The notes under the pieces are model-generated. The model was not told where the DNA came from and did no database searches. It saw only the letters and a program-made list of their open reading frames with translations. A DNA stretch of 64,000 nt from Ianthella basta (Eukaryota; Porifera; Demospongiae; Verongiida; Ianthellidae): the NCBI GenBank assembly GCA_964019415.1, contig OZ025878.1, positions 1,347,001-1,411,000 of the forward strand. The letters are read 5' to 3'. The position numbers and the translations under genes are program-made. Shown here piece after piece: positions 32,015 through 52,400 of this stretch (its first letter is position 1; every line of letters begins with the position of its first letter).

Positions 32015-32053
32015 GCAACTGAAGAAGGCTCCTTTGGGGCTGGAACGTTTTGC
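32015..32053 (+). ncRNA. Hammerhead-like motif, degenerate
   Basis: Stem I GCAA (32015-32018) pairs with TTGC (32050-32053). The core CTGAAGA is intact (CUGANGA). Stem II GGCTCC/GGGGCT pairs with two wobbles. The second core strand reads GGAACG instead of GAAA, so activity is unlikely. Confidence 0.45.
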
Positions 32054-33594
32054 TCATTGAAAAATCTACCATGTCATTTAACTCTCATGAATCTTCCACA
32101 ACCAATTGCCGGGCTTGGTAGTGAATCTCTATTCTTTTAATTTGATGTATGCACAAACAAGACTCACTTTAGCACGTGCGTTATCTTCTTTAGCACCCAA
32201 CAATCATTTTCACAGTGTTAACGTATTTAGAATGTCTACAGCCTTGTAGGAATGAGATGCACAATGACAGCCAGCGTGGTTCTAAACACCCACACACACG
32301 TACAAACAGCCGCTGTCTGAAGCAACCAGGCTGGGACAAAGCTTCAAAGGTTTGTGAATATTTGAAGCTTCATAGTCAGAAGGCCTACAGGTGACCAGAG
32401 CATGAAGATAGCCCTTCACGCAAGTCTATTGCTTGGAGTGAAGCTTGGTGGTGCATGAGACAATGACTGTAAATGGTTGTCCATTGGACAGAGAGTGTCC
32501 GATTCAACACCTCTTCACACATCTCATTTGCTGCAACGGCGAACATTCGAAGCACTAATGACTGCATGGTGCACAGCACCCATACAAGTGTCACACTGCA
32601 TTCTCCTTCACAACATCACCCTCACACTCCGGGGCATCCCATACACGACACATACTTACAATTCTGTTACGAACACTTCAAACGCGTCACAATGTCCACA
32701 CTCACACAATGCAGTCTATACTCAGACCTTGTCACATTGGACACATACCACAGATGACAAACAAACCTTATCACACACCACAGTTGACACTAGGATCCGG
32801 TCATATGGACACTAAAACCTGGTCACATGGACACACACCACCTTGATGCACAGAACTTGTCACTTGAACACACAGGTCTGGAGACAGACACACGTACACA
32901 CGTACACACACATGCACACAGTACACATGCGTGCGTGCACACACACACACACACACACACACACACACATGCACACACACACAAACACACACACACGCAC
33001 ACTACCCTTGATTTCAAGACCCAAAATAATGCCTACCTTTAACTCTAACGTAACACAAAATTAAATGTCAGAAGTAGCAATCACAAACGCTCCACAATTG
33101 GCCAATAGGATGGAAATACATACATAAACCAATAATTAACTTTGAAAAATTGCATTAATTAATGAATAGAACAGGAAAACTGACGAGAAAACACATTTCT
33201 ACACTATTCAACATTTTAAGAGTTCAATGGAAAAGATAATTTATGAACTACATACATTAAATACGTATATCCAATTAATTACATAGCATGTAATTATAGG
33301 GATGCTGAAAATATTGTGACGTTCAGCATATTACTAAAGGGAACAAAATAGAGTACTGACCTGTGAGTCAAAATCAACTGCTTGCATTGCCATGGAAACT
33401 CCAATCACATTTCACTTCTTGGTAGGTGAGGCAGTTCAACAGCAGTTGCTCCCATTGGGTTGGTCTGCAAGTGACCTAGACTCCAAACCTGGTGGCAGGA
33501 ATAGAAGTATGTAGAAGCTCTCAAAATCTGTTTACTTCGATGCGGTAAAGGCCTAGGAAGAGACATCATAAGCTTTTTGATCACATTAGCCGAA

Positions 33595-49400: not shown

Positions 49401-52400
49401 TAGCACAGAAAGTTGCTGAGCGAAAGTGCGTAGCTGGTGAATTCACAAATCAACTTCTAGGATGCTTCAGTCGGGAGATCTTTGTCAACTGGTACAAAAG
49501 GAATAGACTGTGCGTGCAATTGCGCAAGATGGATGGTCTTGCACTGTCATTGGAAAATTGGTCCTGAAAATATTGGTCCTAGGATCAAGTGTTTCAGACA
49601 AATATTGGTCCCCCAGGCCAGATCTTACATACATACCATATATGGTGAACTATTGCGCAAACAAGACATACCAAAACTATTGTGCAATGCAATTGTGCAA
49701 ACGTGACCTATCAAAACTTCTGGTTTTGCACCACCCAGAAGAGAGGGGCTTCGCTTCACTCGCCCCAATAAGACATCAAGTCTTGCCTTCTTGCCATTAA
49801 ACCATCACAGTCTCAAAAGCTCCATTCTATCATCATCTGGGACAAATTGAGTTGACTGCTGCTGATTGTGCAATGACAGAGCGATGAGCTGATGTAACAA
49901 ACAAACTTTACCCTTACTCCAAACCTTACAAATGCTTTTCGCTGCTTGCTGTCAATGTGAAATTTACTATGAAGTAGCTCGGACAAAACTTAAAACCAAG
50001 AAAACAAAATTACAGTAGCAATAATTCTTTTAATTTTGTTGTGGCCTCAGTCCATGGAGTTTGCTTTGGAAAGTTTACATAGCAATAAGTTGAAACTTAA
50101 AAGAGAGTGAATATACTGTTTAAACCTATCCACACACATGAGTACAAATTACATTGTAAGTATAGTCATTCTGAGAAATTGTATAGATATCAACCACAGT
50201 CTGGTTGCTATTTCAACCGCTGAGTACGTACAGTGGAACCTCAGAAATAAGACTACCATTGGGCCATGAAAAAAGGTCTTATTTTGAGGTGGTCCTATTT
50301 CTGAAAACCATAATTCATGTATACATGGATTTGGGACTAAACCAAAGCGGTCTTATTTTAAAGGTGGTCGTTTTATAGAGGTGGTCATTTAGCAGTGTTC
50401 CACTGTATGTGTAACTGCACATTGCTGTCCAAGAAGCTACACATCATTGCAGGACGCCACATCCCTGATGATACAAACCTTTTTCGGGACGGTTGGTCGC
50501 ACTGAGCAGCAGGAGGATTATACAAGCAAGATGATATTATAATATGTACAGAGTTTTACGGAGCAAGTCTACAGAATTCTCCCAATTAAATAGATTTGAT
50601 ATTGTAGAGGCTCATAGTTGCGTTGATAATACACTGATATGAGATTCTTGAGCAAGATACAACTGATGATAAATCAATCAAATGCAGGACGTTTTGACAC
50701 AAAGGTCTTTGTCAACCATCCTGTACGCAGTTGACAAAGACCTTCGGGTCGAAATGTCCTGCATTTGATTGATTTATCATTATCAGTTGTGTCTTGCTCA
50801 AAAATCTCGTATCAGTGTAGACAGATTTGATTGGTTAAACACTCAAATTTCAAACGATAAGCTGGGAACCCACCCAAAGAGCAGGCATTCAGCTAGTACA
50901 ATGTCATATAAATCATGCAAACGATTCCTGGCCCCTGGTACGGATGTGGACAACTGACACAAAATGTCTGTGCAACTCCCAGTACATTCATCCTGACACA
51001 TTTACTATTACAAATGCATGTACAATTATACTAATTATATGCATAATTATCTTATTATAATAAACGCAACACACATTTTCGTTGTTCGGGATAATCTCCT
51101 TCAATTCTGGACAGAACGCCACGAAACTTGGTAGGATTACGAAGAGGTGTACTGTGAGCAACCTCGCCGAGCCGAAATTTGGTTTAAGGTCGTTCCGTCA
51201 GAGCTCTTGCCACTTTTACGGTCGCCATTATATCTAAGAGATAGGGAAAAGATTGAGCTTTGCTGTAAAGGCCTGAGTGGCTAGGCAGATTCATGTTGAT
51301 ATTTCTAAAAGACACTAGCCAAAGGGGATCAGGTATCAGACGTTTCGGCAGCACTACAGCTGCCTTCATCAGTGATTATAATGACACTTACAAGCAGGTG
51401 TATAAATAGGGGGGTGGTCACGTGAGGAATCTATGCAACCCTTCTAGATTGATTTATGTAACCGTCCATCCGTTATTAGTATTATTTCATTTTCACTTAT
51501 TATTTTAACCCCTGTTCCGGTTAGAGACATTGCATGATGTATGCTTTTCCTGTAAACACCAATGCCTCACGTGACCACCCCCCTATTTATACACCTGCTT
51601 GTAAGTGTCATTATAATCACTGATGAAGGCAGCCGTAGTGCTGCAGAAACGTCTGATACCTGATCCCCTTTGGCTAGTGTCTTTTAGAAATATCAACACA
51701 AAAGATTGAGCTTTGTTGTGCACGAAATCCTCCTTCAATTTTTCACCAATCTTTGCCAAACTTGGAAGAGTATATCACGGCAATACGGGGGTGACCTAAG
51801 GTGGTTAGTGTCTTTGCAGCTGGACTCCTTTAGATGAAATGGATTAACATAAGTAAGTTCTGTACGCACGGAGTTTTACGGAGCGAGTCTACGGAATGCT
51901 CCCAATTAAATGGACAGTTTTGATTGGTTAAATGCTCCAATTTTAAATGATATGCTGGGAACCCACCTGAAGAGCGGGCATTCAGCTAGGATATACAAAG
52001 ATGGCAAGTAAATATACATAGATTGCATGATACACTTTATAAACTTGTTCCATAATGAGATTCCTCACCAACCCAAATGTATAGGTGGCATCTAAACTGT
52101 GACTATGAATCACGTTATGGGATATGGCCTTATCAGACTGCATTAGTTACACGAACCACAAGTGTTGTAGTTGACAGATCATTTTGAATCTGCTGTAAGA
52201 AAACCAACCAAGCAAGCTATACGCAACGAAGATGTGTATTTATCAAAGTCAACACCAACGAGTTTGGTGGGTGAGATAGGCAGTATTCCCTGTCGACTCT
52301 CACTTTGAATAAAACAATGGAAAAGTACAGCAGTGCTTAGGATGCTGTTGAGTGAAAGCACATCAACTTCCAGGGTGTTTCAATCCGGAGATACATGTTA

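Follow-up and report, generated by a model that had tools for sequence, protein, structure and literature searches.

Known Minimal Hammerheads and Related Systems

Cervera and De la Pena in 2014 and Lunse, Weinberg and Breaker in 2017 reportedly described the minimal hammerhead ribozymes (HHRs) of Penelope-like elements (PLEs), which are said to occur in many copies and are thought to work as dimers. Minimal HHRs lacking helix III reside in the pLTRs of PLEs according to the available parts of two reports (PMC7761336, PMC6155905), the first of which puts the number of such motifs in an animal genome in the thousands. In the Poseidon PLE of Anolis carolinensis (PAc), HHRs with stems I and II lie at the ORF start and in the pLTR, and cleavage in vitro was protein-dependent, as stated in the portion of the source at hand (PMC11167929). 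The motifs described here have the same two stems and likewise occur at ORF starts and in pLTRs; they are known from sequence alone, whereas the activity of PAc was measured.

The motifs of Ianthella basta share with the PLE minimal hammerheads the CUGANGA/GAAA core, stems I and II, the lack of stem III, the pLTR location and the very high number of copies, and show no difference from them in kind. What stands out is an extra A after A9 and the copy number of motifs with U3-A8. The plus-strand hammerhead of Chrysanthemum chlorotic mottle viroid has one extra core-region nucleotide (A), in the accessible text of PMC3705267, but belongs to a viroid, unlike the motifs here. De la Pena and Flores in 2001 reportedly described this viroid A at the same place, after A9. 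Natural hammerheads whose pair 3-8 has likewise shifted from C-G to U-A have been reported, with “several” examples in the available part of PMC3088659, against 513 strict matches (control 76) in this one genome.

Hammerhead Motifs in the Window

The window, the whole stretch of 64,000 nucleotides that was analyzed, was scanned with both stems I and II demanded. Exactly five loci were recovered, the same five in which the first-pass annotation had seen a shared motif order, with the stems as first written (Table 1). The order common to all of them was stem I, CUGANGA, one extra A or U, stem II, GAAA, C or U, GUH and stem I, with two exceptions in the core. At 50.7 kb the core, previously read as CUGANGA-like, was UUGACAA; at 32.0 kb the stems were as claimed, but GGAA stood in place of GAAA and GUU in place of GUC, and this motif is probably inactive. 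An earlier scan found 0 matches because its pattern excluded the extra base, which was an A after A9 in 98 of the 100 among the matches listed for the genome pattern.

Three window sites had no core mismatch, four had at most one and five at most two. When the window was shuffled six times by a first-order Markov model, no site appeared at ≤1 mismatch, and the counts at ≤2 were 2, 0, 0, 3, 0 and 0. Since the shuffles also reached two mismatches, the 50.7-kb site was non-significant by the window scan alone, and it gains weight from UUGACAA copies, which are numerous in the rest of the genome. A scan of 264 kb (the window and the next 200 kb), permitting spacers of 0–2 between CUGANGA and stem II and of 0–3 between GAAA and GUH, yielded 6 sites at ≤1 mismatch, compared with 0 in four Markov shuffles. 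All six had exactly one base at each of the two places, so that stem III was absent or reduced to the single base between GAAA and GUH. Allowing ≤2 mismatches gave 14 sites, of mixed spacing, vs. 3–5 in the shuffles.

Table 1. Hammerhead motifs and insertion features of the window.
Feature	Positions	Strand	Nucleotide 3	Details
Minimal hammerhead motif	32015..32053	+	+32019	Stem I GCAA/TTGC, stem II GGCTCC/GGGGCT; core GGAA, GUU
Left target-site duplication of 33615..33832 insertion	33595..33614	.		17/20 identical to 33833-33852
Fold-back PLE insertion with GACCAGA pair	33615..33832	.		Tail on right arm only
Minimal hammerhead motif, GACCAGA family	33666..33704	-	-33701	0 core mismatches
Head-to-head partner of 33666..33704 motif	33722..33754	+		5' core portion lost (CAGAAGA)
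Right target-site duplication of 33615..33832 insertion	33833..33852	.		Within older element bearing 33881 motif
Minimal hammerhead motif	33845..33884	-	-33881	Stem I TCA/TGA, extra base U, AUGU not ACGU, 0 core mismatches
Fold-back insertion with UUGACAA-type motif	50595..50819	.		Unoccupied paralogous site 51863-51989
Degenerate head-to-head partner	50666..50716	-		AAAA replaces GAAA
Minimal hammerhead motif, U3 + A8 (UUGACAA)	50727..50762	+	+50731	Stem I GCAG/CTGC, stem II GACC/GGTC, AUGU
Left target-site duplication of 51267..51699 insertion	51247..51266	.		19/20 identical to 51700-51719
Fold-back PLE insertion, two inverted motif copies	51267..51699	.		Tail on left arm only
Minimal hammerhead motif	51335..51376	-	-51372	Stem I ATCA/TGAT, stem II GGCAGC/GCTGCC, 0 core mismatches
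Head-to-head partner of 51335..51376 motif	51616..51657	+		First stem II pair broken (C11.1 to A)
Right target-site duplication of 51267..51699 insertion	51700..51719	.		Pairs with 51247..51266

Stem Covariation and Copies Across the Genome

The stems were claimed to differ in sequence while keeping their pairing, and this was borne out. Across 12 chosen representatives, 90.8% of the alignment cells in the stems were paired vs. 65.0% after shuffling, a value reached in 0 of 500 shuffles, and slid controls of the same alignment had at most 49.5% paired. A second test used 29 types, of which 28 came from sites recognized by the core alone; stem I was paired in 74/87 cells (shuffle mean 38.9) and stem II in 100/116 (shuffle mean 76.0), with 0 of 5000 shuffles reaching either figure. 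Furthermore, the core was read in different frames, TSDEGQRIVAETSVI in locus L005 vs. FALKKTRASGRNVGK in locus L041, and protein coding is thus no explanation for its conservation.

The strict pattern with C3-G8 was found 1739 times in 209 Mb vs. 90 times for the reversed control, these and the following figures being copies and not independent events. The U3-A8 copies (n = 513) carry GAAACGTC, that is, C opposite A8. The totals of U3-G8 (89, control 96) and of C3-A8 (107, control 135) were no higher than their controls; for U3-G8 this applies to totals only, since a stem II was recognizable by eye in 18 of the 34 matches listed with letters. Natural covariation of the catalytic pair (3-8) is clear in this genome and is the most informative result of this work. 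With several families of PLEs, the genome also allows C3-G8 and U3-A8 ribozymes to be compared in one host.

Chance matches in repeat-rich DNA could account for a site such as that at 50.7 kb, which requires two mismatches, a level that shuffled sequences attain. Shuffles, covariation and above all the surplus of matches in the genome over those of the reversed control, for C3-G8 and U3-A8 alike, refute this reading of the motifs as a whole, and its probability is negligible. The density, called notable in the first-pass annotation, is high for this genome (three strict matches in the window, where 1739 in 209 Mb would predict about 0.5), but the available text of PMC7761336 counts such motifs by the thousand in single animal genomes.

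Rfam Searches and Monomer Folding

No hammerhead was found by Rfam in the whole window at gathering score, nor in two window stretches and six loci at E ≤ 10. The genome search with RF00008 gave 0 hits, as did its control genomes. The fold-backs matched miRNA models of Rfam, all below the cut-offs of those models. The absence of covariance-model hits had been proposed as grounds for rejecting the motifs. However, the Rfam hammerhead models were silent even where a motif adjoins an open PLE ORF, so the lack of a match is no refutation; an Rfam screen can overlook such motifs entirely, and “no Rfam hit” is not to be taken as absence.

The best monomer folds at 51.3 and 50.7 kb contained stems I and II plus a 4-bp pairing of the core with CGUC/UGUC. 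This extra pairing was absent at 33.7 and 32.0 kb, where stems I and II formed, and the best fold at 33.85 kb was different from a hammerhead. Predicted folding alone thus fails to single out the hammerhead. The folds at 51.3 and 50.7 kb correspond to what a structural or protein-binding hairpin of the PLE RNA, and no ribozyme, would adopt: stem I, a short helix of the core (GAUG/GACA) with CGUC/UGUC, and stem II. The 50.7-kb copy even has A8 opposite U15.2, and, in the part of PMC11167929 available, the ORF start, beside the HHR, is the proposed binding site of the Anolis PLE protein. Nevertheless, N7 was A, a mismatch in such a helix, in 65 of the 100 among the copies listed (nearly all of one family), and in the 513 U3-A8 copies with GAAACGTC A8 faces C. 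On these two features the monomer hairpin was rejected as the conserved structure. A hammerhead needs the covariation of pair 3-8 and the conservation of GAAA and GU, and such a hairpin does not; a role without ribozyme activity is quite improbable.

Association with Penelope-Like Elements

The same kinds of motif were located beside PLE reverse transcriptase (RT) ORFs in this genome, in agreement with the Penelope link suggested earlier. On contig C1 up to 10.67 Mb, 9 of 11 RT matches were followed, 113–243 nt downstream, by a listed same-strand motif, the two without one being at 4330189 and 10541835. Locus L005 contains 126-bp direct repeats, 99% identical, with a motif in each, flanking RT-bearing ORF pieces. 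Behind an open RT or C-terminal ORF piece in six further loci (L031, L040, L042, L044, L046, and L051), a motif stands on the strand of that ORF; in L051 it is of the 32.0-kb type and lies downstream of the PLE ORF at a distance of about 150 nt. At L041 the start of the PLE ORF runs through a motif, and the two arms at 33.6-33.8 kb match the N-terminus of this ORF, one at 97% over 39 aa and the other at 91% over 35 aa. The motif types found in pLTRs beside PLE ORFs were GACCAGA, GGCAGC, GATC, GGTGGCT, GGCCA and the 32.0-kb type. The motifs, presented at first as a single family, come from several PLE families.

The ORF of L051 matched RVT_1 with E 1.4e-12, the L005 piece with only 0.0041, which misses the cut-off, and the ORFs of five loci align at 33–54% between lineages. 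A YIGET-like stretch was read by eye in the ORFs; no Pfam match to a GIY-YIG domain was obtained in the ORFs tested. By their motifs, together with the pLTRs and HHRs, these ORFs probably encode PLE RT rather than another RT class.

An adjoining RT was thus present elsewhere in the genome; none was detected in the window, which holds short insertion remnants, and its copies are assigned to PLEs by homology only. Next to the U3-A8 families no RT turned up. The one candidate examined, at C2:3031915, was rejected; 2.3 kb, including unrelated sequence, separates its U3-A8 motif from the PLE ORF, and the PLE there carries a motif of the 32.0-kb type.

The motifs could also derive from retrozymes, or from tandem repeats of a satellite-like kind, that had canonical type I hammerheads and were mobilized by PLEs. 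Retrozymes, which bear type I HHRs, occur alongside PLEs according to the excerpt of PMC7229834 available, and a few motifs elsewhere recur 38–39 bp apart. Stem III is missing, however, no motif-holding tandem unit of 150–450 bp was found in the two window stretches searched (31.5-34.3 kb was searched twice), and the same motif types occur inside PLE repeats and ORF starts. Such an origin is very unlikely.

Fold-Back Insertions and Proposed Mechanism

The motifs, their covariation including pair 3-8, the adjacency of PLE RT and the insertion signatures, all observed here, are very probably explained by minimal type I hammerhead ribozymes, without stem III, of the pLTRs of several PLE families. 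PLEs are common in this genome and are a known kind of element, and the finding, though correct, is for the most part ordinary. The putative ribozymes are predicted to self-cleave; several window copies are damaged. In the PLE RNA, the motif would fold with stems I and II, and the missing stem III (self-complementary ACGU) may come from a second copy, whether on another RNA or within a tandem transcript, or a bound PLE protein may hold the hammerhead fold, or both; the RNA would then be cut after GUC. For the dimer step, AUGU, self-complementary via G-U, was counted 357 times (control 37), and ACAU, which lacks self-complementarity, 344 times (control 103). This ratio of about 1:1, or 1.3:1 after control subtraction, is roughly that expected from plain CpG decay, and selection on self-complementarity is not clearly supported by it.

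Four of the five window motifs sit in fold-backs. The inverted partners at 33.72, 50.7 (minus strand) and 51.6 kb have damage in the core or stem II. Insertion signatures were identified at three window copies, namely target duplications of 19/20 and 17/20 and, for the third, an unoccupied paralogue; the 33845..33884 motif belongs to the older element that hosts the 33.6-kb insertion. The head-to-head arrangement would form at insertion, from copies primed in opposite directions.

A speculative and rather unlikely extension is that ACGU pairs two PLE RNAs per RNP, completing the ribozyme and bringing two templates to a double-strand-cut target, so that insertion proceeds from both ends, and that a side branch of PLEs with U3-A8 cores uses the same device. 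If true, such pairing would yield asymmetric junctions and head-to-head fold-backs; among the 100 matches listed, same-family neighbors within 3 kb were divergent in 21 cases, convergent in 0 and in the same direction in 4. At 934.8-939.8 kb of C1, one arm ends, by coordinates, at the hammerhead edge and the other inside the ORF.

The fold-back setting, singled out in the first-pass annotation, is present, but it is an already described feature of PLE insertions. In the accessible text of PMC3846280, Penelope families of Adineta vaga likewise have head-to-head inverted pLTRs, a tail on one of them and short target duplications, which measure 8–10 bp vs. about 20 bp in two of the window insertions.

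Recognition of the Hammerhead Motifs

Both strands of the window were scanned with a two-stem pattern (stem I, CUGANGA, 0-1 base, stem II, GAAA, 0-2 bases, GUH, stem I). When as many as two mismatches were tolerated, this recovered the five loci of shared layout that the first-pass annotation had described as hammerhead-like (at 32.0, 33.7, 33.85, 50.7, and 51.3 kb) and nothing else. In their best reading, all five carried one extra base after the CUGANGA segment (A in four, U in one) and one base between GAAA and GUH (C in three, U in two); core mismatches numbered zero in three loci, one in another and two in the 50.7-kb copy. 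Six Markov shuffles of the window held no site at one mismatch or fewer, and 2, 0, 0, 3, 0, and 0 sites at up to two. With wider spacing limits, 264 kb yielded six sites with at most one mismatch, all of 1/1 spacing, versus none in four shuffles. Of 100 places among the matches listed, 98 had A as the extra base, one had U and another had C, the sole C belonging to a shortened copy of the GACCAGA type (types are named by stem II sequence).

Positions of motifs, insertions, fold-back pairs, and reverse transcriptase (RT) matches in the window and on C1, a contig of the genome
Feature	Location	Position	Remark
Motif	window	51335-51376	no core mismatch
Motif	window	33666-33704	no core mismatch
Motif	window	33845-33884	no core mismatch; AUGU replaces ACGU
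Motif	window	50727-50762	U3-A8 pair; AUGU
Insertion	window	51267-51699	flanking repeats 19/20
Insertion	window	33615-33832	flanking repeats 17/20
Insertion	window	50595-50819	target copy without insertion at 51863-51989
Readable short pairs	window	33.7 kb; 51.4-51.6 kb
Readable short pairs	C1	303996/304020, 551413/552252, 585986/586003, 798483/798587, 1569819/1569904, 2211526/2211558
RT with motif downstream	C1	934985, 938649, 987817, 4772608, 4788249, 5040546, 6125829, 6128476, 10291282	same strand
UUGACAA-type repeats	C1	16151325-16151430 (-)	head to tail, 38-39 bp spacing, 2-3 copies
UUGACAA-type repeats	C1	8945795-8945860 (+)	head to tail, 38-39 bp spacing, 2-3 copies
UUGACAA-type repeats	C1	9645081-9645184 (+)	head to tail, 38-39 bp spacing, 2-3 copies

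Covariation of the Stems

Sites were picked by the core pattern alone, with no stem requirement; the 48 obtained, one or two of which look like chance, collapsed into 28 types, and the 32.0-kb site was added by hand to give 29. Stem I was paired in 74 of 87 cells (mean 38.9 and maximum 59 in 5000 shuffles), and for stem II the count was 100 of 116 (shuffle mean 76.0, highest value 91), numbers that do not equal independent events, since the types are partly related (e.g., GACCAGA variants). When 12 hand-chosen representatives were aligned, 10 pairs were 90.8% paired versus 65.0% after shuffling (0/500), both sides had changed in 34 cells, and sliding the partners by 1-3 columns left pairing at 49.5% or below. 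Hence, the earlier claim that the stems differ in sequence yet keep their pairing was borne out.

The motifs belong to an already described class, the minimal hammerhead of Penelope-like retroelements (PLEs), reportedly presented by Cervera and De la Pena in 2014 and by Lunse et al. in 2017. The check by Rfam covariance models, proposed in the first-pass annotation, gave no hammerhead match to the motifs, a silence that we read as a limit of those models. Several Rfam miRNA models matched two fold-back pairs below their thresholds (window 33638-33785 and 1504-1586 of locus L025), and PLE hairpins of this kind could pass for miRNA precursors.

Association With Reverse Transcriptases

The proposed link to Penelope elements was upheld, with RTs located next to such motifs outside the window. 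On the stretch of C1 covered by the motif listing, 9 of 11 matches to the L005 RT piece described below had a listed same-strand motif 113-243 nt downstream; those at 4330189 and 10541835 had none among the matches listed, and four further C1 matches lie beyond that stretch and outside this count. At L005, whose motif sits 44 kb past the end of the window, an RT-bearing element is represented by three ORF pieces interrupted by in-frame stops, enclosed by a pair of 126-bp direct repeats that lie 2.6 kb from each other, share 99% identity and both contain the motif; a 350-aa piece of this element had at least 116 genome matches among the best candidates scored. At L051, a motif of the 32.0-kb type follows a 471-aa ORF (RVT_1, E 1.4e-12 in Pfam) by about 150 nt.

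Motif type tracked RT lineage: GGCCA occurred with L005's own RT, GACCAGA with the 54-56% relatives, GGCAGC with a 45% relative and GATC-TACG with a 43% relative. The putative PLE ORF pieces of L005, L031, L040/L041, L046, and L051 aligned with one another at 33-54% between lineages. A YIGET-like stretch seen by eye suggests a GIY-YIG endonuclease, a domain that Pfam did not report. The N-terminus of the L041 ORF matched both arms of the 33.6-33.8-kb fold-back, one at 97% (39 residues) and one at 91% (35 residues); among five other ORF pieces, one matched the window (E 0.04) and four did not at E<=1. The hammerhead lies inside the ORF start at L041 (1489-1600) and L005 (6700-6810), and its frame differs between these families; a single stretch of bases could thus act both as ribozyme and as coding sequence.

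Fold-Back Pairs and Insertion Marks

Among 100 listed of 1739 motifs, neighbors within 3 kb were divergent in 25 cases, convergent in one and same-direction in six (21, 0, and 4 where the first 16 letters were identical); among 100 listed of 513 U3-A8 motifs, the figures were 12, 1, and 5. By our reading, one arm ended earlier and the other had an extra tail in all eight short pairs with both outer ends readable; excluded were 427807/427820, in which one arm is truncated, the pairs at 1430941/1432126 and 50.7 kb, whose tail could not be read, and the nested or partial cases L018, L022/L023, and L039. Two long pairs with ORFs between the arms (934869/939787 and 986790/988955), left out of the eight, showed the same asymmetry.

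These fold-backs match the published account of the pseudo-terminal repeats of Adineta PLEs, which are inverted, bear a tail on one copy, are most frequently head-to-head and are explained by self-priming (PMC3846280). In vitro, the Anolis PLE protein cuts both target strands and extends them (PMC11167929).

Immediately 5' of stem I, near ATCTTCGCC, many short GACCAGA-family copies cease to resemble one another, and the L005 5' repeat behaves likewise; these insertions seem to start at the hammerhead's 5' edge, not at the cleavage site. The GACCAGA-type insertion at 33615-33832 is nested within an older PLE fragment (window 33565-33969).

The Catalytic Pair

Copies of each combination at core positions 3 and 8 were counted genome-wide, with the core upstream of N{12,32}GAAACGTC and the reversed pattern as control. 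Only the two Watson-Crick combinations exceeded the control: C3-G8 (1739 vs. 90) and U3-A8 (513 vs. 76), versus U3-G8 (89 vs. 96) and C3-A8 (107 vs. 135). The wobble class U3-G8 was populated, 18 of the 34 matches with printed letters showing a recognizable stem II by eye. A pattern with GAAANGTC gave 1025 matches against 545 in the control, so many are chance. Among its first places listed, UUGACAA occurred on at least three stem II types (GACC-TTCG-GGTC, GGCT-CTCG-AGCC, and GGCC-TACGT-GGCC), the last found also with CUGAUGA and UUGAUGA; a path between the pairs through U-G is plausible from these three forms. For the U3-A8 type, which includes the 50.7-kb copy, a linked RT was not found. Natural U3-A8 hammerheads were reported in 2011 and described as active in vitro (PMC3088659). 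The head-to-tail UUGACAA repeats could place a hammerhead dimer within one RNA.

Proposed Working

Beyond the sequence pattern, covariation, PLE linkage, and insertion marks observed, the motifs probably work by hammerhead cleavage: the PLE RNA would be cut after GUC, with stem III supplied by pairing of two ACGU tetranucleotides or the fold held by protein. Reviews describe PLE hammerheads without helix III (PMC7761336, PMC6155905) that may act as dimers (PMC7761336, PMC6466107), and the hammerhead of the Anolis carolinensis PLE, PAc, cut only in the presence of protein (PMC11167929). Three of the five sites had a best monomer fold other than a plain hammerhead. The decay forms AUGU (357, control 37) and ACAU (344, control 103) were about equally common; thus, these counts do not demonstrate selection on the palindrome.

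Additionally, the window holds a transposase remnant (7928-8653; DDE_3, Tc1-like by eye), an uninterrupted 788-aa ORF (21580-23946) of GTPase/COR-like look by eye only, with no Pfam match at E<=0.001, and a long tandem array (40400-41990) readable as protein in several frames.
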